From assembly GCA_025677825.1 (NCBI GenBank), contig JAIXMO010000078.1:30911-94910 (forward strand): 64,000 nt of DNA, in the 5' to 3' direction. Position 1 is the stretch's first letter. Each line of letters opens with the position of its first letter. Positions 955-63,673 of the stretch are shown here, piece by piece. The translations under genes and the position numbers were made by a program. This DNA is from Helicostylum pulchrum. Taxonomy: Eukaryota; Mucoromycota; Mucoromycetes; Mucorales; Mucoraceae. The notes beneath the pieces are model-generated. The model was not told the DNA's origin. It searched no databases and worked only from the letters and a program-made list of their open reading frames with translations.

Positions 955-1094
955 ATACTGTGAGTATTTACTATAAAACAAATTAATTAGCCAATAGAAA
1001 TGATGTATTTTCAAAGATTGAAACTTACATAAACATTTTTAGAATAGAAAATGTAATAGAAAATTAAAATAAATAAATTAATTGTTTTAAGCTC

Positions 1095-1514
1095 TTACCT
1101 AGATTTTTCTAGTAATACCATCATCGATAGCAGGCCTTGAGGTGTTTCGGTTAAGGAAAACCTCGGCTTTTTTTTTTTGAAATCATCAGTATTTGTTTCA
1201 CTGTTGTAGTCGTTGTAACAAAAAGATGGATGTTGCATCTTTAGTAGTAACATAACCGATCCTGAAATACATATTGCAGTAGCAGATACGGCATGTCTTC
1301 CCTTGTGTGTTTCATGTTTCAAAGCCAATATACAATGCTTGTTAGAGCAAACTGTTGTTCCTCTTACTTCCTTGACGAGAGTACCATTCTTGGTTTTTAA
1401 GACTTTGAACGGGTGTGTTGTTTTTTTAAAGCAAAAAACGCAAGTTTGAGATGTCAAATTTTCAAAAAAAAATAAAATATTATTTCGTAAATGCTTCCGA
1501 TGTACCTGAGACAT
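1095..1514 (-). pseudogene. Fanzor (TnpB-like nuclease) C-terminal fragment
   Basis: Only the C-terminal part of a Fanzor remains. Visible are a Glu three residues before TSQTC (residue 18 of the reading), a C4 zinc finger (Cys 25, 28, 56, 61) and the RuvC-III helix GRHAVSATAI. The family has RD at that last position (as in the copy near 29,900, KARDEVSALAI); here the catalytic Asp is His, codon 1295-1293. RuvC-I and the N-terminal lobe are absent. On the minus strand it lies directly downstream of a Crypton first exon. It cannot encode an active nuclease. The family assignment rests on the zinc finger plus RuvC-III pattern shared with the longer copy. Confidence 0.75.
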
Positions 1515-1581
1515 ATAACCTATTAGGGTCCGAGCACTTTTAAACTTAAAGATAACTTGCTACTAAAAGAAAACTCACCTT

Positions 1582-1752
1582 CTATTCTTCCAGTTTAGCG
1601 ATGTGTGCCTTGATCGTGTTTACAGGACGACGTGACATACCTTGCGCTATAATCATCTGGTTACTGCGATGCATAGCTGAGCTGTTATCAACCATACGTT
1701 GAGTACCTTCGTTATTAACCTCGATAGATGTACTTTTTTGACTATTGTTCAT
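1582..1752 (-). pseudogene. Crypton recombinase first-exon fragment
   Basis: An ATG at 1752-1750 opens 56 codons that match the first exon of the Crypton genes at 4884 and 25113, with a shared core like NNEGTQRM...SSAMHRSNQ...RRPVNTIKAH. The reading ends at a TAG (1584-1582) where the 25-kb copy has TGG (Trp) just before its splice donor. The donor-like GTGAGT sequence after it is still present. The rest of the recombinase is missing and the sequence runs into the Fanzor fragment. It is a relic, identical in structure to 62732-62902. Confidence 0.75.
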
Positions 1753-2035
1753 TATAGATACTCTGTATTTAAATATATAATCAGGTTAATAAACATATTA
1801 AAAACATCTATGACTTTGAGCCTTAGTATCTCAACTTACAGGAAATAATTAAAACAATATATGAAAGAATATAGCAAAGAGAAATATTTTAAGAAATGAA
1901 AAATATGTGTCTTTTTATAATACGAATCATTAGTTAAAGAAGCGCGTCTATTCATACCATACGCAATCGAAGGGCTTCAAAATTAAAAACTTAAGCACTT
2001 TATTGGCTTTTTGGCTTTAATTTTTATTTCAGTCA

Positions 2036-2088
2036 GACCAGAAAATACTTTTTTTTTATTTTTTTCCCTGCTAAATTCAAGTCTGGAG
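2036..2088 (-). repeat. Conserved non-coding motif, left copy (truncated)
   Basis: This AT-rich block, containing GTATTTTCTGGTCT on the minus strand, matches longer versions at 30157-30227 and 63199-63270. The left copy has lost the adjoining TTACGCCTAATTTTTGG part. It is non-coding; see the finding on a candidate guide-RNA or terminus sequence. Confidence 0.65.
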
Positions 2089-2333
2089 ATGCTGCTAAAT
2101 TATCCAACACCAAAAACCCTTTTTATATTATTTTCCTTCGTTTTCGCGTTTTAGTTTCTAACTATTTTATTTTATGTTTGTACACAAACTGATACGGTTC
2201 TTCTTAGAGCACTGACCATCCATAAAGGTAAGCGAAAAGTGACTTGAAAAGTTATTTTTTTCGGTTAAACATTTTTCATGTGCCAGGAAATATAAACCTT
2301 CCAAAGTTATTTTTTTAACTAATTCTTTTTAGA

Positions 2334-2486
2334 CTCCCTGTCTCATGGAAACAAACTCGAATGGTTCTACTTTTCAAGAAGGGCGATCCTACCCTGCTAA
2401 GTAACTGGAGACCTTTATCACTCATTAACACTGATGCGAAAATTTTCACCAAATTACTAGCTAATCGGTTTAATAGGATACTGTAT
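2334..2486 (+). pseudogene. L1-type LINE reverse-transcriptase fragment
   Basis: About 50 codons read LPVSWKQTRMVLLFKKGDPT, then NWRPLSLINTDAKIFTK and LLANRFNRIL. This is the typical start of the reverse-transcriptase palm of L1-like retrotransposons (LLFKKGD, NWRPLSL, DAKI). It opens just after an acceptor-like TTCTTTTTAG and breaks off at the ATACTG boundary of the repeat unit. No other LINE sequence is visible, so it is a captured fragment. The right copy is at 63518-63673. Confidence 0.75.
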
Positions 2487-2649: not shown

Positions 2650-4884
2650 CTATGTGGTATTATTTTTAATCGTTTTTATCAGTTTGTCTATTGATGCGCC
2701 TAATTCAGTGCGTCTTGTTTCTAGTATTTGTGCTGCCTCTTCACATGAGATACTTCTTTCATTTGCTATTTTTTCAACTTCTTTATATATAACAGAACGA
2801 GTGTTAAAAAACTTTGATTCTGTTCTATTTTTTCTCCATTTAGCCTTGTGCTCTTGCTCCATTGTTTTCACCGAAGGTGACCCAGATATCCCAGTTGCAT
2901 ACTCTCGCCATACATCATTGATATTTACAATATGTCTGTTCATTTTATATTGTACAATACCATCAACTTGTTCAATGTTTGTATTGTCGGTAGTAGCGTT
3001 ATTGTTGGTAGTGTTGGTAGTAATAATCGTCTTTATAGTGGCAGTAACAAAATTATTCACTTGATCAACATGACCTGGCTGTCTCAAAAGTGATGCTACG
3101 TTCATGAATGAGTCTGCGAGAGTGTTCTTAAATTCCGCCTGAGATTGTATGACCTGCTCGTTGCTTGTAATTACCTGGGATTGCATTGCTTGCATCACAC
3201 TTGTCATGGCTTGAAACCCAATTCTGAATACAGATGCTAATTCAGGAACCAGAACCTCCAAATTTTGCCCCATATTGAACCTGTCACTATCTTGAGAAAC
3301 TGCCCGCAAAACTTGTTGTTCAAAGAAGCAATACTCGGGTGTGCTAAAAATCGAGTTCGTCCATAAGTAATGGTGCGGGTATTTGTGTTGGAGCAAAACA
3401 GAATCCTAGTAGTAATAATTAAAATACATGATTAATAACATTATTCAGGCATTAATTCTGTTCATATTACCTGAAGCAAAACTACACGTAAGAATGATAA
3501 TAAATTTAAAAAATTAATTCCTGCAATACCTTCTTGAACTTTTTTATTGGCGATCTTTTGTTTCCATTCTTCAATTTTTGTAAATATTGACCTTTTCAAT
3601 GTTTCAGATGACTCTACAGTTGTTTTACTTACAAAGTAGTTTCCTTTTTTTAAACTAAACCCAGCAAGACATTTTATAGCATCTACTGTAAGACCAGTAA
3701 GATAGCATCCAGTCATTCTATCAGTACCCCATCGTCCAACTTGACGTAGCTGATCACCGGAGACACCAGAACTCGAAACCATGTTAATTGCACTTTTTCT
3801 ATTGATGTGCGTGACCTTCGAAGAATTAATACTAACAGCTTGAAACACTTTCTTGTATATCTTTGCATGCTCATTATAGCTCAAAGGTTTACCTTGTTCT
3901 TTACCAGGAATAACATAGGTATCGTGCCAAGCTGCTCTAGTTGAAAAATCAGGAAAAGGATAATTTTCATGATGAAATCTTGAGAAAAAATATAATGCAA
4001 ATGCTCCAATTGAACAAACTTCATAGTCTGAATGGCGAAGTGCAGATCTATATTCGAGCTTTCCGTCTTTGTTAGTTTTTCCAAACGAAATTGTTGCGAC
4101 AATTGCGGTACATTTTGAAATTCCTTGACCATGTAGTTCCATTGAAAAAAGATCAGGAAGTTGCATTGATAGAGCATTTTCGCTACGAAGAAGCATGACA
4201 TGACTCATCAAAAAACAAAGTCTGTCTCTTGTACCAAGAACAGAGTTGCGATTCCAGAAATATTTGCTTATGTCGAGAAGACCTTGTGGGTCATAGCCGT
4301 CAATTAGAATATGCTTTCCACGATCATGATGATTTACCCTTTGACGCTTCACTCCTTTTTTAATATGTGTATCGAGAAATGCTCTTACAAGCGGTCCTCT
4401 TGGAGAAGGATGGTTATTAACATTCAAAGATTTCTGCCAATTATAAAGATCCGTAACAGCTTTAACATACACAAGAATAGATTCAGCACCTAAAGGAATA
4501 GGTACACCGTCTTCACCTTTTTTAAATTTGTTACCGCGGACCTAAACAAAATCATTCATGAAGAAACAAAGCTTTTCGTCAGTTACTATTATGCCATCAT
4601 CGAATTTCTTAATTTCCCGGCACCAATGCTAATAATGGAAGTTATTATATTTAGTACTCATATCGTCAGGAATATATATATGCATATTCTGTTACCTTAA
4701 ACTCTTCTTTCTTTGAAGAATATGCGATATTGGTATTTTTAGGGCGAAGTGCCATGTTTTCAGCCATAACCATTTGACTATTACGATGCATCTCTACATT
4801 ATTATCAACATTATTTTGATATTCATCTCCTAAGGAACTATTTCCTTGATAAGAAGAAGAAGAGGAAGAGGCAATGTTGTTCAT
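2650..4884 (-). pseudogene. Crypton tyrosine recombinase, near intact with one in-frame stop
   Basis: The exons read 4884-4696, 4628-3471 and 3405-2650 with good GT/AG junctions, giving about 700 residues. The middle exon is a Ndc10/Crypton-type tyrosine recombinase: Arg in MLLRSEN, the HxxR box THINRKSAINM, GRWG, and the nucleophile Tyr in MTGCYLTG are all present. The last exon has a GCR1_C DNA-binding domain (NDVWREYATGISGSPSV...KWRKNRTESKFF), the usual Crypton partner. The reading is broken once, by a TAG at 4544-4542 in the sequence FFMNDFV*VRGNKF. The family function is excision and integration of the element by site-specific recombination. It could be a recent pseudogene, or the stop could be an assembly error or read through. 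Confidence 0.85.
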
Positions 4885-5418: not shown

Positions 5419-6220
5419 ATGTATGCTACTCTCAATTTTAACGATTATATAAGCTCTGGAAGAGGCCCTGGATGGTCTATGCAAGAAGAGTTATTACTTA
5501 TCTCAATATATACAAAATATTTTAATTCGCTTTAAAACACTAACAGCGACCCCGAAAAAGCTGCAATTTATATCAACATATCGTCTGAGTACGATGCGAA
5601 AGCTATGGAGCTGCATTTGAGAATTCGTATTCCAGACGAACAAAAAGTAAAGTGGAGACGTATGGTAAAAGCATTCAAGGAGGAATTTACCAGACGTCAC
5701 ACGACTGGAGCAGCTGGTAATACACCAGATATGGTGTACGAGAAGCTTGAGGAACTTCTGTTGCAATACCCTACCGTCCTGCCACCTATTGCATACAGCT
5801 CCTACCGAAGAAGCTTCGAATCAAACTCTTCTGCGCCAGTTGTTACCAGTTGCTGAGCATGAGCGTCCTGAAGCTTCTCGGGATACGGAACCCCCTTCGA
5901 CCAGAAAAAGAACGGTAACATCTCCCCCCGCTAGTATCCTTTCCACCAATGCACCCTCCATAACATCAAGACGGCGCCAAGGAGCAAGTACACCCGATAT
6001 GAAAACTATGCTAAACCGTATTGTCGATAGAGAACATGTGTTTCGACAAGGTATCTTTCGGGAAGTTAGAGAGCACATGGAGTCGCGAGAACTCATTAGC
6101 GATGCTAGAGGGGATGCTTTACTTGCTGCTCTCAATCGGGCGAGTGATATCGCTGAGCGAAATGGTGCGATAATGAGAGAGGCATACGATCTTTTTCTCC
6201 AACAAAGTCGTAATCAATAA
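5419..6220 (+). pseudogene. PIF/Harbinger accessory (Myb/SANT-like) protein, decayed
   Basis: The reading starts at ATG 5419 (MYATLNFNDYISSGRGPGWS) and resembles the trihelix/Myb-like partner of Harbinger transposons: PGWSMQEELLLISIYTKYFN near the start, then DEQKVKWRRMVKAFKEEF. It is broken by a TAA at 5533-5535. A frameshift between about 5750 and 5850 moves the C-terminal half into the frame ending at 6220. The C-terminal part (RIVDREHVFRQGIFREVREH) is helical. It is convergent with the transposase at 6281-7630, the usual two-gene Harbinger layout. In the family this protein helps the transposase enter the nucleus and bind element ends. It is non-functional as read. Confidence 0.65.
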
Positions 6221-6280
6221 ACAATAAAAAAAAAGAATATAATATCATACATTATTTATAACAAAATTATACATTAATTT

Positions 6281-7630
6281 TTACTGAGTGCTAAACCATC
6301 GATTCAATTCGTTTCTTCTCACACGAACGGATCTAGGGATATTATCCTCGTTTTCATTTTCTCCTTCGTCTTCTCCTTCTTCTTCAACCGATCCTATTTC
6401 GTTTGGGATTCGAAAATCAAAATCAGGATAATCGATATTGATACAGATATTGTGCAGTATACATGCTGCAGTGATAACATAACAAACGTCAGTGATATCT
6501 CTCATGTATACATGCTTGCTAATGAATCGCCATCTAGCAGAAAGCAATCCAAAGACCCTTTCGACGGTCATTCTTGCAGACGAATGCACTTTGTTGAACC
6601 TTCTTTTGGCAATAGCATCCGGGGAATTACCAGTGGTCTCCGTTATTGGATACGGGACAATCACGTTACGCGAAAGAGCATAAGCAGAATTTAGAAAATT
6701 CATATACATAATGCTTTAAAATCAGTATATACAATTATCAATAATTAATGGTTAAACAGATTTCTACCTGCGAGAATGTATCCTTCATAGGAAAAAAAGA
6801 TTTGTGGATGTCGCAAGAATACCGTGAATACCTCGGTCCATTTGAATGCAGCAGCATCGTGAGTACGACCTATTTAATGTCATCAGCATGGTAGTCGATA
6901 TTTAATAAATTAGTTGTAAACCATACCCGAGTCCCTTACACAAATATATGTGAAACGGCATTTGTCGTCACACACGGCTGTCAGTTTCATCGCAAAGTTC
7001 CCTTTTCTATCGCGCCAATGTTCCGGATGAACCCTTGGTGATTCAATGATCACATTTTTACCATCGAGTGCACCAATAACATTAGGCAAACGACGGAGCG
7101 GCCCTTCTTCCGGACATAGTGGCCATTCAAAGCCTGTGTGTATAGCCTGAACTCTTTCTTGATCGACAGGCCAACTAATGTTGCTTCCATAGACTCCTTC
7201 GATTGAAATTAGGGTTCTACGGAAAAAATTGATGTAACTTCCATGGGATACACCCAGATCAGCGTTACACATTCTGTATCCGAGATGACAGTTAGCTAAC
7301 CGCCAGATAGCACGAGATTTGTATATACACTGGTATGCTATTGTGCGCTCTCAAATCAAAAGCAAGATGCTGGCTGAGGTCATTAACCAGTCTTTCAAAA
7401 CTGGCAAGATTCCTTCGGTACATCGCACGAAAACTCGTACGCGAATTGTCATCGTTTACAAGAAATGGGTGAGTAATAGTCCAGTATTGAAGCTTGCTGA
7501 ATGATACATTTCCTGTCGATGGAATAGCACGAGTTGATCGTGTGCCAACTGTCATGAAAGGCAATGCGTCAAAGGAAGAAGGTGCGTCAAAAATACCAGA
7601 ATAGTAATAAAGAAACGCTTCTCGGTTCAA
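6281..7630 (-). pseudogene. PIF/Harbinger DDE transposase, decayed
   Basis: Three blocks form a DDE_Tnp_4-type transposase. 7630-7292 is N-terminal. 7272-6910 holds VIGALDGKNVIIESP with the first catalytic Asp (about 7064). 6709-6281 holds NSAYALSRNVIVPYP and a VERVFGLLSARWR region with the third acidic residue. A spliced piece near 6870-6770 supplies RTHDAAAFKW...GYILAG. The join at 7270-7330 is a frameshift with no splice signals. The second catalytic Asp, normally GDSAY, appears as Asn (codon 6691-6689), and no AG acceptor precedes it. I judge it dead. No terminal inverted repeats or target duplication could be found by eye. Confidence 0.75.
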
Positions 7631-8050
7631 GTTACTTTCGAGTTCATTTTCAGTGAGTTAAGAATAAACGGCTGCAGAACATGTGTTCGTTAAAAGCATT
7701 GAATCTTCGTAAGTGATAGCAAGCTGTTGCAAGAATAATTCTGCGTATGTAGACATTTCAAATAAAAATAAAAATAAAGTAAATGAGAAGAAAAATAAAG
7801 AAAAAAATATGCATTTTATAAAGTTGCTGGTGGAATGGACCCTCTTTTTTTGTGTGGTGAAGTGGAATGGAGGACAGTAATCAGAAAAAAATTAAATCCT
7901 GATATCATAGAGTACTCCTAATTAGGAATATAATTGCTAGATCTCATTTTTTAAAGATCAAAAAGCAAGAATATCCAGCTATACCTCAGGTATAGTCGAA
8001 AAAAATGGACTTTACCGAAGAAAATTTGAAATTTCGAAGATTTTTTTTTT

Positions 8051-25112: not shown

Positions 25113-25850
25113 TTGAAAAAAAATGCAACCAAGTTATCCAGAACCCAGTATCTTCTTCGCAGACCAGTCAAGAAAAGTACACCTGTCGAGGTTAATAACG
25201 AAGGTATTCAACGTATGGCTGATAACAGCTCCGCTATGCATCGCAATAACCAAATAATTATAGCGCAAGGTATGCCACATCGTCCTGTAAACACGATCAA
25301 GGCATACACCGCTAAACAGGAAGAATGGAAGGTGAGTTTTCTTTTAGTAGCAAGCTATCTTTAAATTATGATATTAACATATAAATCAAAGGCTTGGTGT
25401 AACGATCAAAATTTTGAAGATGGTCGAACAGTATCTGATTCAAAATTAAGCTACTTTTTGATGGAGCATGTGTCTAAGCGTGGTCGTAAATGTCGAAAAT
25501 TTCCAGACAGACGTCCTATAAAGTTTGGAATGGAATCTTACAACGCTTATGTTAAAGCTATATCTGATCTGTGTAAGACGCAAAAAGCTCTGGGTTGGAA
25601 TCCCAATGGTATAGTTTGAGGTCCTTTAGTAGCAACTTTTTTGGAAAAAACTAGAGGGCTTACTTCGCCGATCGTGGTAAGAATGGTCTTGATGATATAT
25701 ATACAAGAAAAGAACTTCAAGAAATAAGTGAATATTTCATAGCTAAAAAAAAATGATTGTCGTAGCTCAAGAGATAGGCTCTGTTTTTTTCTTAGCCATG
25801 CTATGCTTTACCGCAGTCAAAATGCTTTAGGGATGCAGTTTGCAAAAAAA
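25113..25850 (+). pseudogene. Crypton recombinase 5' half, truncated
   Basis: The first exon (to about 25334, donor GTGAGT) matches the N-terminus of the Crypton at 4884 and the two edge copies: VNNEGIQRMADNSSAMHRNN. After an intron ending near 25391 it continues AWCNDQNFEDGRTVSDSKLS and KFGMESYNAYVKAISDLCKT. There is a stop at 25617, then fragments in shifting frames (TRKELQEISEYFIAK, RDRLCFFLAM, SHAMLYRSQNALGMQF) that align with the Crypton up to its first catalytic Arg. It ends in a poly-A run at 25845. The HxxR, Tyr and GCR1_C parts are missing. It lies upstream of and collinear with the Fanzor gene. Confidence 0.8.
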
Positions 25851-26104
25851 AAAAAAAAATCGAAGTTGGGCATACGGATCACTTAAACAATCAATATTTT
25901 CTATAATCCGAGAAGATTTCCAACAAAAACTAGCACATAGACATCTTTTCTCTTAAATTTAATAAAAAAAAAATGTACATATATATTTCCTTTTACTTTC
26001 ATCACTAAATAATGCAAAAAAGCGTTTTTTTAAATCTAAAAAAGTAATTAACTTCGACTGAAATTTAAAGAGATTTGGAACTGTGGCGGGTCTTGGCGGG
26101 AAAT

Positions 26105-26119
26105 AATACCCTCACAGTA
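26105..26119 (+). repeat. 15-nt candidate element end
   Basis: AATACCCTCACAGTA is an exact match to the reverse complement of 62161-62175, the outer end of the right mosaic unit, and close to the left unit's end at 955-970. Here it lies between the Crypton relic and the Fanzor reading. Confidence 0.5.
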
Positions 26120-26121
26120 CT

Positions 26122-26335
26122 CTGGACACGGAAATGATCCACAGGATAGAAAGGTGGACTTTGGAAGCGTGGCTCAATTAAAACAGACGTGCCTATAACA
26201 GCAAATAATTGAGAAGGGCGCTATTAGTGACACTGAAATAAACAATAGCCTAACTAGTGGATCTGTGAAGAAGTACATCAGGACCAAAAAAAAACACATT
26301 TTGGACTGACATAGTCGAAAACCATTTTGATGATA
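26122..26335 (+). repeat. Diverged partial duplication of the Fanzor 5' region
   Basis: This block aligns along its length with 26643-26890. Examples are CTCAATTAAAACAGACGTG against CTCAGTTAAAACAGACGTG, and GAAAACCATTTTGATG in both. Differences are frequent and the frame is not kept, so it is an old internal duplication or the remains of a second Fanzor copy. It has no coding capacity of its own. Confidence 0.75.
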
Positions 26336-26458
26336 CATTGCTGTCTCTGATTAATCGATAAATTTCATGTGATTCATAACAGCATTTCTGTATTTTTAAA
26401 TCTTTTTCTTGTTCATCTTTCCAGCTTCCTTTCTTTTCAACATAACCTTTTGATTTAA

Positions 26459-29400
26459 ATGAAATACAGCAAAAAGAGACAGAAGCACACTTACGATACT
26501 GAAAATTACGCTCCAAACCATTGTCCAATTTGGAAAACGAGCATAAAAAGAGGGTATGAAGTAGAATCCGTAGCAGGTTCAAGTAATAGAAAATGTGCCA
26601 AGGGAGACGAAAAAGCACAGAGAGATCGCGCTTTACAAGAAGCTCTTGGCACAGAAATGATCAAAAGATTAACCAGAAAGATAAAGACGTGTATTTTGCA
26701 GAAGGGAAATACGGCTCAGTTAAAACAGACGTGTCTGGAACAACAAAGAATTGAAAAGGGGACTGTTACTGACGCGGAAATTAACAATGACCTAGCTAGT
26801 GGATCGGTGGAAAGTTACATCAGGAAAAACAAAAACAAAAATATAGCCTTTTAGACCGACATAGTTGAAAACCATTTTGATGGAATCTTGTCGCAATTAC
26901 AGCAAGAAAACGTTACCGCATCTGAGGGCAGTTCTCGCGCTAAACCAGAAAACACTGCTGAGAATGTGGTCAATATGGATACCTCTAGAACTTGCTCTGT
27001 TCAATTCTCAACTATACTTAGAGAAGATTTGCCTGAAGACATTTCACAGTGGTTTCAAAAGACACTGAAGGATTCTTTACGGAATACCACTAACTACTTA
27101 ACAGACTTCTCTGTTCGCCTATACAAGATTTTCCTTCAATAACCAGTTCAAATGTTTTTAGTTTTGGTGCTGCCAAAGGCGTCGCGATCAATACAATTTT
27201 ACCGATTGCCTACCAATCCAAGGAGGACGAATTTCTGGCACCCCATTATAAACCGGAATGCACCGATAATGATTTATTCCAACAGCAAATGAAGACCTTG
27301 TTCAGTTCAGCTCATCTTTCAGCAGTTCACTCAAAGTATTACGGCGATGACGGAATACGAGCGGAAACCTTGAAAAAGTATCCATTACATGCTGCTGTTT
27401 TTAAGCTCATGCCCACCGACGAGACAAATCATTTCAAGTGTGACGCTGATACTCACGCAATGAAACTGGCTTTAGCTGGTTACATGGTTAACTTCTCAAA
27501 CATGTGGAAAAAATCTAATCGTTTTTATAAACTATTGAACAACCTGTTGCAAGTTTTACTTAAAATACATCTCGCTCCTACAAGAGAACGACGATATAAG
27601 GATTTTATTGCCCAAAAGAAGCAAGAAAAAATCGAACGTCATGGTACATCGCAAAAGTTGGTGAAAAAATCGAGAAGCGGCCTACGAAGATTTTTTAAAA
27701 AAGAAAGAGCAAAACAGGAATATTATCAACAGAAAGTATCACAAGGTCATGAGCAGCGAAGTGTATGAGAGGAAAAGGTAGCAACGTGCAAACAAAAAAT
27801 TCTCGATTTTGAGGAAAATATAATGAAAAAGGTACGTAAAGTCAATAATGTGTTTGAGACCACTACATTAATAAAAATATGCTATATAGCGCGAATCTTT
27901 GCCTTCGAGCAATATAAAAGAGGTATCTGAAGATGAAAAATCTATGGAACTAGAAGTTGCAAGCGAAATAGAACTGGATTATATTGAAGATATTGAAGAT
28001 CAAGATAATGAGCAAGAGCAGCGTAATGACACCGACCTGTCAACAAGGCGTTTATTCCATTTGCAGTCTATTATTAGAGACTTATTGTTGAAAAGTGGCA
28101 GGAAGTCTATAGGTGTACAAGACCTTAAAGATGCTTCTAATGATCTCGAGGACAAGGAAGTAAGTGTCTGTATGTTGATATTCAACTTGATTGCTCCGTA
28201 TATTTCTGATCATAAAAACAGAGGATCATTTGCGTATCAATTGCCCTTTCTGCTTAAGTGTAATCAAATATCTCTAGTAACTGAATACTTCAAATTTGTG
28301 GTAAAGTTATGTCCTATCATTAAACCAGGAAGTCTATCTTCCCTTCGGATGGATGCAGCTGGCTTATACAGCTTGTTTAGCTCACAGAAATTTAAAGAAA
28401 AACCATTGAGAGTATTCGATCACAATAATCAAGAGATTACATCAAATAAAGCCGCGACAGATCTAAAATACGCCATGTTTGGATCATACTTCAATCTCCT
28501 AAAGGTCTTCCAACGTTCAGCAAGTTATAGACAAGTCTTTCAACATTACATGATATTTCTACCTGGGCTACAGACCGTTCGATTAATAGGAGAGATAAAA
28601 AAACCCACCATGTCAAACATTCATTGAACTACAGGAGCCGCAAGAACAAGCTCCGTCTGTCGTAGAGAAACAATCAAAACGGAAGATAGAATCACAAGGA
28701 AAAGAAGAAAGGATGAAGTTACTTAGAAGAGAGCAGGATGACACTATGAAGGAGTTAAACTTGGCTCTTGAAGAAAGAAAGAAATGTACCGTGCGTCAAG
28801 ATATGAAACAACTGAAAGGCCAATGGGTAAAAGGTCAAAAGACACACTCTAATCAAGTCTTATTCGAAAAAATAAACAAGTTGAAAGAAAAACGCGACGA
28901 GCTTCAACAAAAAGTATTCCTTTTGAGCAACAAGAAGAAGGAGTTAGGAAAGGAAATTTATTATTTAAACAGACGGGTTGGGGTAAATAATAAGGAAGAT
29001 GAAGAAGAACAACCTGTTGTCAAAAAGAAGTTAATCAGCTATAGTAACTATAAATGCATGGAGAAAACTGAGAACTTGAAAATGGATGAAGAGCTTCTGA
29101 ACGGAAATTTGTGTATGTCCGGCACAGATAACGGCATCGTGACAATGACAGAAACATGCAAGTTAGATCTCGAAAAATTCAAGTACCATCTTAAACTTTA
29201 CAATCGATACGATGCTCTAGAAAATGAAGGTAAATAATATTTTCTATTAATTTTAGAAGTCACTGAAGAGGACAAGGTCATGGCATACATTCCCAAGACC
29301 ATGAAAATCTACTCGAAGGATATCTAATATCGATCAGGCGGTAAAAGTGCTCAGGTAAATTTGATAAAAAAGAAGAAGCGTGGAGAACAAGGTCAACGTA

Positions 29401-30070
29401 TCGTAGAAATAGAAAAGGAATTATATGAAAGCAGCCTTTGGATCGCCACAAGCATCGACGATTTGACAAATAAATATTCAAAGCATGACGGCTATAAGAG
29501 ATTTTTATTACTCAAAAAACATGGTCAAGCAAAGAAGAAGATCCGAATTATCACTCCAACGTACAAAAGATCGCGTATGTTCGGAAGAGCGCAAATTTGT
29601 TGGAAACAAGTCGAAGTCAGTCATGTTTATTGGAGATCGTGGCTATGGAGTTGGTAGTAATATTAAAGGGCATATCAAATATGGCGGTAAATGGAAACCT
29701 GCTATACACTTCAGTTTGTATCACAAACGAGCATTATACGTCACAGACATGTTTGTTCTGCTACGGAAAATTAGACCATCCATTAAAAACGGTCGTATCA
29801 AAAAATGGCAAAGCATCTCTACGCTCCATCAAAGGGACGTTTGTTTGCAACAACAAAAAATGTCTACTTCAAAAATTATCTGCTACTCACAAAGCTAGGG
29901 ATGAAGTCTCCGCTCTTGCCATTGGTTTGTCTGGCGCAGCTAGTTTAATCCTTGACATCGCTTTCCCTTCTTCCGATCCAAACACCAGTCAATCTAAAAC
30001 TGAAAGATTTAAAAACACTGCCGTTGCTTTCCTTAAACGAAACGCTTCTAGGCCCACTTTCCCGAAGTAA
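26459..30070 (+). pseudogene. Fanzor (eukaryotic TnpB-like RNA-guided nuclease), decayed
   Basis: A long gene survives in pieces. 26459-26854 and 26888-27142 are in one frame with a TAG at 26852. Then come 27140-27768, a possible intron about 27832-27892, 27893-28625, 28620-29237, about 29255-29530 and 29500-30070, with shifts between them. The C-terminal half fits the published TnpB/Fanzor pattern D-x(125-275)-TS-x-x-C4-RD. The RuvC-I Asp is in MSGTDNGIVTMTE (codon 29127). GDRGYGVGSNIKGHIKYGG precedes TNEHYTSQTC. Zinc-finger Cys codons are at 29750, 29759, 29846 and 29861, and RD in KARDEVSALAIGLSG at 29897-29902. Spacing Asp to TS is about 204 codons. Fanzors cut DNA guided by an omega-RNA encoded at the element end. 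At least four lesions make this copy inactive. The N-terminal half (MFGSYFN, LAGYMVNFSNMWKKSNRFYK) is unassigned. Confidence 0.8.
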
Positions 30071-30156
30071 TACTTCTTAGTCTGATACTAAAGTAATTAA
30101 AAAGTTAGTGTCGTCAAAAAAAAAAAAGCCATCATTACCTTCCTAAAGTATTTTGG

Positions 30157-30227
30157 CTGGACTTGAAATTTAACAGGGAAAAAAGATAAAAAAAAAGTAT
30201 TTTCTGGTCTTACGCCTAATTTTTGGA
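30157..30227 (+). repeat. Conserved non-coding motif just downstream of Fanzor
   Basis: Beginning 87 bp after the Fanzor stop is a block CTGGACTTGAAATTTAACAG, then GTATTTTCTGGTCTTACGCC and TAATTTTTGG. It matches the reverse complement of 63199-63270 closely and a shortened version at 2036-2088. No frame is conserved. Placement 3' of a Fanzor reading makes it a candidate element terminus or omega-RNA segment, which is inference. Confidence 0.65.
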
Positions 30228-30457
30228 AAATACCCTACCGTAGAAAAGAGCGAAAAGGTTTGGGTGTACCGATTAATTTAGGGCTGTTATGCAAATTCCT
30301 CATTTTACTTTTTTAAAAGGTGAAGAGTTCGGGCCGTGTTCCTTTAAGATCATGCCGAACTTTTAACTCGCTTAAAAGACTAGTTTATATCCTAACACGA
30401 ATAAATTCTCTTTATGTATTGTTAATAAAGTCTATAGACATGAAAACCAAAAAGGCT

Positions 30458-57505: not shown

Positions 57506-58183
57506 GATAAATAATAGTAAACGACAATCTTAAAAACCTCTTAAAAAAACCTTTCGAGAGTAAAAAAAAAAAAAATAGCGCAAGAGGAAAAGATAACGGA
57601 AGAGTAGCATCATCTTGAAATATAACCACACCAGTCGGCACCAGAAACCATAAAAATATTACTAACACCACTCAAAAATCCAAGCAGAACAAAGAATTCC
57701 AAACAGAGCAAAAAGTACCAGAAGAGAAAGAGCCAAAGAAGAACAAGAGTACATAAAGAGTTTCAACATACCTTGAAGAAATATAATAAAAAGTTTGTAC
57801 CTTGAAATTGGTTTTATCATATATAATGACAGATGCTTTACCAAGAGGAGACCTTCTTTTTTTCATTTATGATAAAACCAATTTCAAGGTACAAACTTTT
57901 TATTATATTTCTTCAAGGTATGTTGAAACTCTTTATGTACTCTTGTTCTTCTTTGGCTCTTTCTCTTCTGGTACTTTTTGCTCTGTTTGGAATTCTTTGT
58001 TCTGCTTGGATTTTTGAGTGGTGTTAGTAATATTTTTATGGTTTCTGGTGCCGACTGGTGTGGTTATATTTCAAGATGATGCTACTCTTCCGTTATCTTT
58101 TCCTCTTGCGCTATTTTTTTTTTTTTTACTCTCGAAAGGTTTTTTTAAGAGGTTTTTAAGATTGTCGTTTACTGTTATTTGTC
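57506..58183. repeat. Large near-perfect inverted repeat (315-bp arms, 48-nt loop)
   Basis: 57506-57820 is the reverse complement of 57869-58183. I found only two mismatches, both within 17 bp of the outer end, and beyond it the flanks diverge abruptly. The loop is 57821-57868. The arms carry coding-like sequence (MLKLFMYSCSSLALSLLVLF) on the plus strand of the right arm, hence also on the minus strand of the left arm. A transcript across it would fold into a 315-bp hairpin. Confidence 0.92.
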
Positions 58184-62159: not shown

Positions 62160-62251
62160 ATACTGTGAGGGTATTTGCTATAAAACAAATTAATTAGCCA
62201 ATAGAAATGATGTATTTTCAAATAAATACATTGGTTGTTTTAAGCTCTTAC

Positions 62252-62620
62252 CTAGATTTCTCTAGTAATACTATCATCGATAGCAGGCCTTGAGGTGTTT
62301 CGGTTAAGGAAAACCTCGGCTTTTTTTCTGAAATCATCAGTATTTGTTTCGCTGTTGTAGTCGTTGTAACAGAAAGATGGATGTTGCATCTTTAGTAGTA
62401 ACATAGCCGATCCTGAAATGCATATTGCAGTAGCAGATACGGCATGTCTTCCCTTGTGTATTTCATGCTTCAAAGCCAATATACAATGCTTGTTAGAGCA
62501 AACTGCTGTTCCTCTTACTTCCTTGACGAGAGTACCATTCTTGGTTTTAAGACTTTGAACGGGTGTGTTGTTTTTTTGAAGCAAAAAACGCAAGTTTGAG
62601 ATGTCAAATTTTCAAAAAAA
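62252..62620 (-). pseudogene. Fanzor C-terminal fragment, right copy
   Basis: It is the same fragment as 1095-1514, with the RuvC-III helix GRHAVSATAICISGSAML again carrying His for the catalytic Asp. A one-base deletion in the run after AAGACTTTGAAC-like sequence (GGTTTTAAGAC against GGTTTTTAAGAC) shifts the frame within the zinc finger, so TSQTC and the second Cys pair are in different frames. It is more decayed than the left copy. Confidence 0.75.
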
Positions 62621-62731
62621 AAAAATATATTATTTCGTAAATGCTTCCGATGTACCTGAGACATATAACCTATTAGGGTCCGAGCACTTTTAAACTTAAA
62701 GATAACTTTCTACTAAAAGAAAACTCACCTT

Positions 62732-62902
62732 CTATTCTTCCAGTTTAGCGATGTGTGCCTTGATCGTGTTTACAGGACGACGTGACATACCTTGCGCTAT
62801 AATCATCTGGTTACTGCGATGCATAGCTGAGCTGTTATCAACCATACGTTGAGTACCTTCGTTATTAACCTCGATAGATGTACTTTTTTGACTATTGTTC
62901 AT
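62732..62902 (-). pseudogene. Crypton first-exon fragment, right copy
   Basis: ATG at 62902-62900; 56 codons identical in layout to 1582-1752, including the TAG at the former Trp codon before the GTGAGT donor. The shared nonsense mutation shows it predates duplication of the unit. Confidence 0.75.
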
Positions 62903-63198
62903 TATAGATACTCTGTATTTAAATATATAATCAGGTTAATAAACATATTAAAAACATCTATAACTTTGAGCCTTAGTATCTCAACTTACAAGAAATAATT
63001 AAAACAATATATGAAAGAATATAGCAAAGAGAAATATTTTAAGAAATGAAAAATATGTGTCTTTTTATAATACGAATCATTAGTTAAAGAAGCGCGTCTA
63101 TTCATACCATACGCAATCGAAGGGCTTCAAAATTAAAAACTTAAGCACTTTATTGGCTTTTTGGCTTTAATTTTTATTTCAGTCAGAGACTGAAAAAA

Positions 63199-63270
63199 AA
63201 TCCAAAAATTAGGCGTAAGACCAGAAAATACTTTTTTTTTTATTTTTTTCCCTGCTAAATTCAAGTCTGG
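63199..63270 (-). repeat. Conserved non-coding motif, right copy (full)
   Basis: This is the full version of the motif, aligned on the minus strand with 30157-30227 (CTTACGCCTAATTTTTGG at its end). Here it lies upstream of the Crypton first exon, whereas near 30 kb it lies downstream of Fanzor. Confidence 0.65.
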
Positions 63271-63517
63271 AGATGCTGCTAAATTATCCAACACCAAAAA
63301 CCCTTTTTATATTATTTTCCTTCGTTTTCGCGTTTTAGTTTCTAACTATTTTATTTTATGTTTGTACACAAACTGATACGGTTCTTCTTAGAGCACTGAC
63401 CATCCATAAAGGTAAGCGAAAAGTGACTTGAAAAGTTATTTTTTTCGGTTAAACATTTTTCATGTGCCAGGAAATATAAACCTTCCAAAGTTATTTTTTT
63501 AACTAATTCTTTTTAGA

Positions 63518-63673
63518 CTCCCTGTCTCGTGGAAACAAACTCGAATGGTTCTACTTTTCAAGAAGGGCGATCCTACCCTGCTCAGTAACTGGAGACTTTT
63601 ATCACTCATTAACACTGATGCGAAAATTTTCACCAAATTACTAGCTAATCGGTTTAATAGGATACTGCCATAG
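63518..63673 (+). pseudogene. L1-type LINE reverse-transcriptase fragment, right copy
   Basis: It reads LPVSWKQTRMVLLFKKGDPT and NWRLLSLINTDAKIFTK like the left copy, with Leu where the conserved Pro of NWRPLS was. It stops at TAG 63671 right after the ATACTG boundary. There is no LINE continuation in the flanking sequence. Confidence 0.75.

Follow-up and report, generated by a model that had tools for sequence, protein, structure and literature searches.

The window analysed here is a 64,000-nt stretch of the genome of the Mucorales fungus Helicostylum pulchrum (contig JAIXMO010000078.1, positions 30,911 to 94,910; the genome comprises 32.2 Mb in 168 contigs, designated below by C and a number). 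Positions 25146-30070 of the window (plus strand) hold the 5' half of a Crypton, with part of its tyrosine recombinase (YR), followed by a divergent Fanzor gene. The Crypton part begins at a CAGTAT hexamer (25146-25151, plus strand) that continues into CTTCTTCGCAGACCAGTC and resembles the 5' end of the copy on C1 (CAGTGTATCCTTCCTCAGACCAGTC); relative to C1, the window copy lacks about 400 bp separating the hexamer from exon 1. Exon 1 (to about 25331), an intron and exon 2 occupy 25166-25844 (plus strand), with stop codons and frameshifts, and reach about amino acid (aa) 136 of the YR as measured on the other Crypton of the window. At most the first arginine of the R-H-R-Y residues of the YR could remain in this half. 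The segment shares 90.6% identity with the Crypton at C113:105288-104587, which has a whole YR interrupted by stops, and a Crypton 5' half at 25113-25850, as stated in the original prediction made from the letters of the window, is thereby borne out.

Contrary to the claim that nothing else lies between the two halves, a Crypton remnant, a Crypton-type 3' end and a duplicate of a Fanzor exon are found there. The remnant (25925-26106, plus strand) was defined by aligning the window with ten other copies and is Crypton 3' sequence left after an internal deletion; its positions 25925-25966 resemble the coding end and 3' untranslated region (UTR) of the other window Crypton (42 nt, 81%). Among the matches listed, the 3' side of the deletion is identical in position across the window and the ten other aligned copies, and about 30 further bases are missing at the deletion junction in four of the aligned copies. 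The fossil internal 3' end that follows, TACCCTCACAGTAC (26107-26120, plus strand), is, among the same matches, letter-identical in nine of 11 aligned copies, with two mismatches in C113 and C123. Directly abutting it is a 5'-truncated, decayed duplicate of a Fanzor exon (26121-26340, plus strand). Since the same arrangement of remnant, internal end and exon recurs across the aligned copies, the composite began as an internally deleted Crypton immediately adjoining a broken exon of a Fanzor.

The Fanzor gene itself was confirmed at 26460-30070 (plus strand; predicted at 26459-30070), spread over several frames; it is a pseudogene here, with an in-frame TAG at 26852-26854. Its C-terminal frame contains TNEHYTSQTCLFC and RD, and the window frame and its relatives share the pattern NEHxTSQTCxFC ... 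C-x4-C ... RD. PMC10711439 gives as a Fanzor hallmark an alternative glutamate that precedes the zinc finger by six residues (E-x6-CxxC). We found it in 22 of 27 relatives and in 13 of 14 canonical Fanzors, against 0.8% of shuffled sequences of the 27 relatives. Fanzor1 is marked by a [TS][TS]xx-C4 zinc finger and an RD motif (PMC3627910), and the family here reads TSQTC..C with a second pair C-x4-C, while the RD column over 27 rows has D in 21, N in three, a gap in two and G in one. The DPG motif in RuvC-I is described as nearly exclusive to Fanzors (PMC10711439); at this place the window, C78b and P0038 read SGTDNG, a divergent form. The match to PF07282 (TNB domain) was weak (E 0.032 for the window; below 0.1 in four of 27 relatives), and hhalign against canonical Fanzors gave E 0.00047, yet a probability of 32%. 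Solved Fanzors were not matched with A2, L015 or the window frame as query, the profile of the family being among the queries; the canonical set A4 matches SpuFz1 (E 1.3e-9). We call the window family a divergent Fanzor. A second Fanzor1 family, canonical and bearing DPG, is represented by a 476-aa open frame at C158:323101-324528 and its relatives, and its profile matches SpuFz1 at E 1.3e-9.

The order seen in the window, termed composite A, was read at 12 loci, and C80 shows the same order by coordinates alone. The window copy and that of C106 align over 4,994 bp at 93%, and over the 66 pairs among the 12 copies, identity in the longest matching piece ranges from 86 to 97%, with a median of 92.5%. 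The left flanks of nine of the 12 copies were printed, and all differ by eye. A genome-wide search with one query gave 97 merged Fanzor loci, which is a lower bound; the locus counts for YR pairing and for element ends include related copies of one family and are not independent events. Of the 97 loci, 18 are preceded by a same-strand YR fragment no more than 8 kb away, versus one downstream on the same strand, none upstream on the opposite strand and one downstream on the opposite strand. Two of the 18 are not composites, namely C113:97047, with host-like genes between, and C145:32080, which lies beside a separate Crypton. Distinct lineages are also joined in this order: C78b unites a different Crypton lineage with Fanzor-B, C152 and C106:62999 unite YR aa 141-193 with a third Fanzor, and C94 unites YR pieces to aa 309 with Fanzor N-terminal pieces. 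The Crypton-Fanzor composite is a real recurring unit with definable ends, decayed in the window, and the view that it is a composite element, not chance nesting, stands.

On C113, where a Fanzor follows the Crypton of 105 kb at a distance of 6.9 kb, a complete composite was also considered and ruled out, as host-like genes intervene.

The edge repeats of the window were said to join a Crypton first exon to a Fanzor C-terminus, which is correct, the Fanzor being a second lineage. The left copy (955-2483, minus strand) is a deletion derivative consisting of a reverse transcriptase (RT)-like 5' end, Crypton exon 1, the Fanzor-B C-terminus and an end at ...TACTCACAGTAT; the right copy (62160-63667, minus strand; C145 right) has the same structure and ends at TACCCTCACAGTAT. 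Two further copies at C98 (a, b) have the same flanks as the right window copy. The 5' end of the repeat is an antisense RT-like fragment (2319-2483, plus strand) whose last codons spell CAGTAT. Its RVT_1 match (E 0.011) is below the cut-off, and its relatives, 65% and 56% identical, lie in frames of 483 and 410 aa. This composition points to a captured 5' end.

The 3' ends of these elements are shared. Homology ends at ...TACCCTCACAGTAT in Fanzor-A, Fanzor-B and C79-type elements, and we used this 14-bp signature, END, to search the genome with at most one mismatch. There were 87 matches versus two for the reversed pattern; setting aside 15 of the form TCCCCTCACAGTAT left 72 END hits. Of the 97 Fanzor loci, 28 are followed by a same-strand END no more than 700 bp away, versus 2, 1 and 1 in the controls. 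With one mismatch, it also occurs 750 bp past the GCR1_C match of the C129 Crypton, which encodes YR and GCR1_C.

As for the 5' ends, CARTAT is where homology begins in C78b, C122a and the Crypton of C78, each differently flanked, and CAGTAT in two differently flanked edge-repeat loci. Both ends were read in C158, C78b, C122a, C1, C102 and two edge-repeat loci. The short (4-6 bp) terminal direct repeats without terminal inverted repeats (TIRs) that mark CryptonF are present, CARTRT-like at the 5' and CAGTAT-like at the 3' end, with the variant hexamers CAGTGT, TAGTAT, CAGTAA and CAGCAT; by eye, the flanks adjoining the hexamers show no repeat. The element on C158 begins at a CAGTAT that lies inside the longer 5' region of C106b, C57 and C136.

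Several further features of these ends were recorded. CAGTAT as the 5' end of C106b was dropped, C57 and C136 sharing at least 650 bp further upstream and only C158 starting there. The 5' region occurs with a C2H2-like coding piece (CTACDLKFKNARTLIGYMSQVHRKH, by eye) at C114:577400-578420, C158:306711-308300 and C106:22350-23824; C114 has a longer open stretch between the Crypton exon and the Fanzor, and captured gene pieces are possible. A conserved RNA fold of the 3' UTRs is not claimed: folding, run without a control, gave consensus energies of -11.8 for family A, -7.0 for B and -27.6 for the C79 type (four near-identical rows). In most rows keeping that stretch, the motif ATGTAAGT precedes the end by about 80-100 nt, in three otherwise different 3' UTRs (for example C133:140489-140683, C78:73417-73579 and C79:463480-463686), and differs by one base in C123a and C137. 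The boundary between TTTACCCTCACAG and the final TAT resembles a 3' splice site, so that splicing of the tail is conceivable; alternatively, this may belong to a guide RNA. At C125:707580-707593, END follows about 105 bp of C79-type 3' UTR, and the 511 bases fetched contain no match to a Fanzor, which makes this a ghost-like copy. The variant TCCCCTCACAGTAT occurs 15 times on 11 contigs (C15, C18, C23, C29, C36, C38, C39, C42, C67, C69 and C70), with pairs on opposite strands 1.6-6.8 kb apart in C23, C36, C38 and C39.

In some copies a 3' end runs into a 5' end. In C133 a single CAGTAT connects the 3' end to 28 bases that match the C1 5' terminus exactly. In the window the 3' side is rearranged (30071-30243, plus strand), an inverted piece of Fanzor 3' UTR being followed from 30146 by sequence from the 5' terminus of the element; whether TACCCTACCGTAG (30231-30243, plus strand) represents a degenerate end is uncertain. 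The 3'-to-5' junctions in C133, C122b and the window are compatible with a circle opened elsewhere or with tandem copies.

A separate full-length Crypton lies at 2650-4884 of the window (minus strand), comprising exon 1, YR and GCR1_C (NDC10_II, E 5.6e-42; GCR1_C, E 3.6e-25). Its YR residues were placed by motif at R119, H245, R248 and Y280, and a weak Phage_integrase match covers aa 201-281 (E 0.0045). An in-frame TAG at 4542-4544, found by eye, precedes the YR core; the C129 relative reads through. In composite A the YR is kept only to about aa 136, and GCR1_C, which is present in the window Crypton, is deleted, the 3' remnant alone being left. Because it lacks the R-H-R-Y recombinase of a CryptonF, the composite is filed as a Crypton-derived, non-autonomous element, not a complete Crypton.

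We consider it probable that the composite is a non-autonomous, Crypton-derived Fanzor carrier of CryptonF type, which lost the catalytic half of the YR, bears a divergent Fanzor at its 3' end and is moved in trans. Full-length Crypton recombinases would most likely supply this mobilisation, because the outer ends of the composite (a CARTRT-like hexamer 5' and TACCCTCACAGTAT 3') are Crypton-type. The hexamer at both ends, the 14-bp signature in three Fanzor lineages and its one-mismatch form in a Crypton all favour mobilisation by Cryptons. Transposition would probably proceed through a circle, with the hexamer as its point of closure. A long fixed signal would be located in the 3' end, and the 5' side would need little beyond the hexamer; cryptic upstream hexamers could then act as new 5' ends, and constant 3' and variable 5' regions would follow. 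A fixed 3' signal with a bare-hexamer partner would explain the captured RT-like 5' end of the edge repeats, and the constant 3' and variable 5' parts of the MCi-2 elements of Mucor too.

Several observations weigh against mobilisation in trans from these ends. The prediction of a working recombinase and nuclease pair in one element was not supported, as the YR is cut short, fragmentary or decayed in the composites read; a search for an intact YR beside a Fanzor found none in the loci of this genome that were read, where the YR ends at about aa 136 or 123, is fragmentary, or is decayed (C94). The Cryptons of C129, C78 and C113 (104 kb) carry frame breaks or stops, and the window Crypton an in-frame stop. 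Open YR frames exist in C7 (469 aa), C91 (421 aa) and C113:222752 (326 aa), and no END with at most two mismatches was found in the stretches fetched around these three. With the former Cryptons broken and the latter lacking END in those stretches, the Cryptons examined offer no clear active helper. As to the signature, 69 of the 97 Fanzor loci have no END within 700 bp, and the C113 Crypton end, CAGTCTCACAGTAT, agrees with it at 11 of 14 bases. Among the 72 END hits, 44 are unassigned to a Fanzor; nine of these are composite-A internal ends and one is that of C129, and five others that were sampled comprised one Fanzor-type 3' end, at C125, and four with the motif alone. The 5' hexamers of type A vary (CAGTGT, CAGTAA and TAGTAT, with CAGTAT in the window), the 3'-to-5' junction of C122b has a different 3' end (CTCTAGTAT), and internal junctions could equally arise from tandem copies. 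No empty site was found: in the comparison of empty and filled sites that the original prediction had suggested, the joined flanks of nine copies (the 5' end of C106b misplaced) gave no match spanning any junction. Frames of at least 70 aa run through the rejoined site in three of the nine (C78b, C1 and C113).

If the Fanzor was active, the single CAGTAT at an emptied site would be its natural target-adjacent motif (TAM) and the right flank its guide, and a candidate guide RNA would run through ...ACCCTCACAGTAT into the right flank. More tentatively, then, recombination and re-cutting may be parts of one asymmetric process, in which a long 3' site recombines with a bare CAGTAT-like hexamer at the 5' side, capturing DNA, and the Fanzor (DNG, alternative E) re-cuts emptied or allelic sites at the hexamer TAM with the right flank as guide, driving re-insertion. 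We regard this fuller scheme as possible, though doubtful.

Nesting followed by segmental duplication, with a Crypton fragment beside a Fanzor element by chance and the block copied without transposition, is in our view unlikely. Segmental duplication does happen here, since the right-hand edge repeat of C145 and the two of C98 (a and b) have common flanks, and the internal end set against a broken Fanzor exon shows that nesting or a tandem event produced the initial join. The left flanks nevertheless differ among the nine composite copies printed, the ends coincide with hexamers where both were read, the same order is found where other lineages of Crypton and of Fanzor have been joined (C78b, C152, C106:62999 and C94), and the bias in strand and order is 18 versus 1, 0 and 1.

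Judged by the ends, it is quite improbable that a Helitron-like or other rolling-circle element bears the Fanzor and has taken up Crypton pieces on its 5' side. Helitrons end 3' in CTRR, whereas the 3' ends here are CAGTA(T), hexamers stand at both ends, and the 3' signature is common to a Crypton encoding YR and GCR1_C. In favour of this reading, the 3' ends are constant and the 5' ends variable, a boundary between A and TC could be read at several of the latter, and Helitron transposases are among those linked with Fanzor1 (PMC10711439). Copying through RNA with 5' truncation, in the manner of a long interspersed nuclear element, is very improbable, for although it too would yield constant 3' and variable 5' ends, with an RT-like fragment at the edge-repeat 5' end, that fragment is antisense and part of the unit, Crypton intron 1 is retained in C102, C106, C122b, C123, C133, C137, C1 and C78 (alignments crossing the intron), and the 3' ends printed show neither a poly(A) tail nor a target duplication.

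Elsewhere in the window, a near-perfect inverted repeat (57506-57824 and 57865-58183) has 319-nt arms, 99% complementary, around a 40-nt spacer. Minus-strand frames at 5536-7657, next to a plus-strand gene, are candidates for a DDE (Harbinger-like) transposase, by eye only.

The association of Crypton and Fanzor is already known from Mucor: MCi-2A of Mucor circinelloides carries Fanzor1 and a Crypton transposase without about 200 C-terminal aa (Bao and Jurka 2013, PMC3627910). The composites resemble MCi-2 in having Fanzor1 in a constant 3' part, variable 5' parts and no TIRs, and in their occurrence in Mucorales, and they resemble MCi-2A in the truncated Crypton transposase, which was found in one MCi-2 subfamily (PMC3627910). 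The same source gives target site duplications (TSDs) of 11-12 bp with the pattern ATAATTNNNN(N) for MCi-2A and 2D, and leaves the classification of MCi-2A open. TSDs of this kind were not seen at the composite ends printed and, by comparison with the published description, the elements here differ from MCi-2A in their 6-bp CAGTAT-like direct repeats and 14-bp 3' signature. In the parts of the literature covered we met neither these ends, nor a common 3' signature of Crypton type, nor the hexamer model of the 5' end; on Helicostylum transposition no literature was found in that search, which left out most subscription papers and bioRxiv. The termini thus bear on whether Fanzors with a truncated Crypton transposase are Cryptons, open since Bao and Jurka 2013, and they offer a simple explanation of why the 5' parts vary.

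Terminal direct repeats of 6 bp and an absence of TIRs are features of the majority of fungal CryptonF elements, and the group is reported also from Rhizopus oryzae (PMC3212892). The full Cryptons here agree in their YR and GCR1_C protein, and the 6-bp terminal direct repeats and lack of TIRs are shared as well, whereas the composite is without the catalytic YR half and GCR1_C and bears a Fanzor. Crypton recombinases are named among the Fanzor1-associated transposases (PMC10711439). As with the SpuFz1 loci and their 'ghost' elements (PMC10432273), copies without the gene keep the 3' end; unlike the composite with its Crypton-type ends, SpuFz1 lies between 30-nt inverted repeats. For a Fanzor of Parasitella, also of the Mucorales, the TAM is ATN, and the accessible text makes no mention of Crypton (PMC11423790). 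With the termini in hand, the role of Fanzor in eukaryotic transposons becomes a defined question, namely whether CAGTAT is needed beside the target. In IS607 and IS605 elements with TnpB, a recombinase or transposase is combined with an RNA-guided nuclease, unlike the Fanzor-bearing unit here, which encodes no intact recombinase. We put forward as a hypothesis that the composite may parallel these elements; if the asymmetric scheme is true, it would represent a eukaryotic recombinase and RNA-guided nuclease pair acting in trans, the counterpart of IS607-TnpB.

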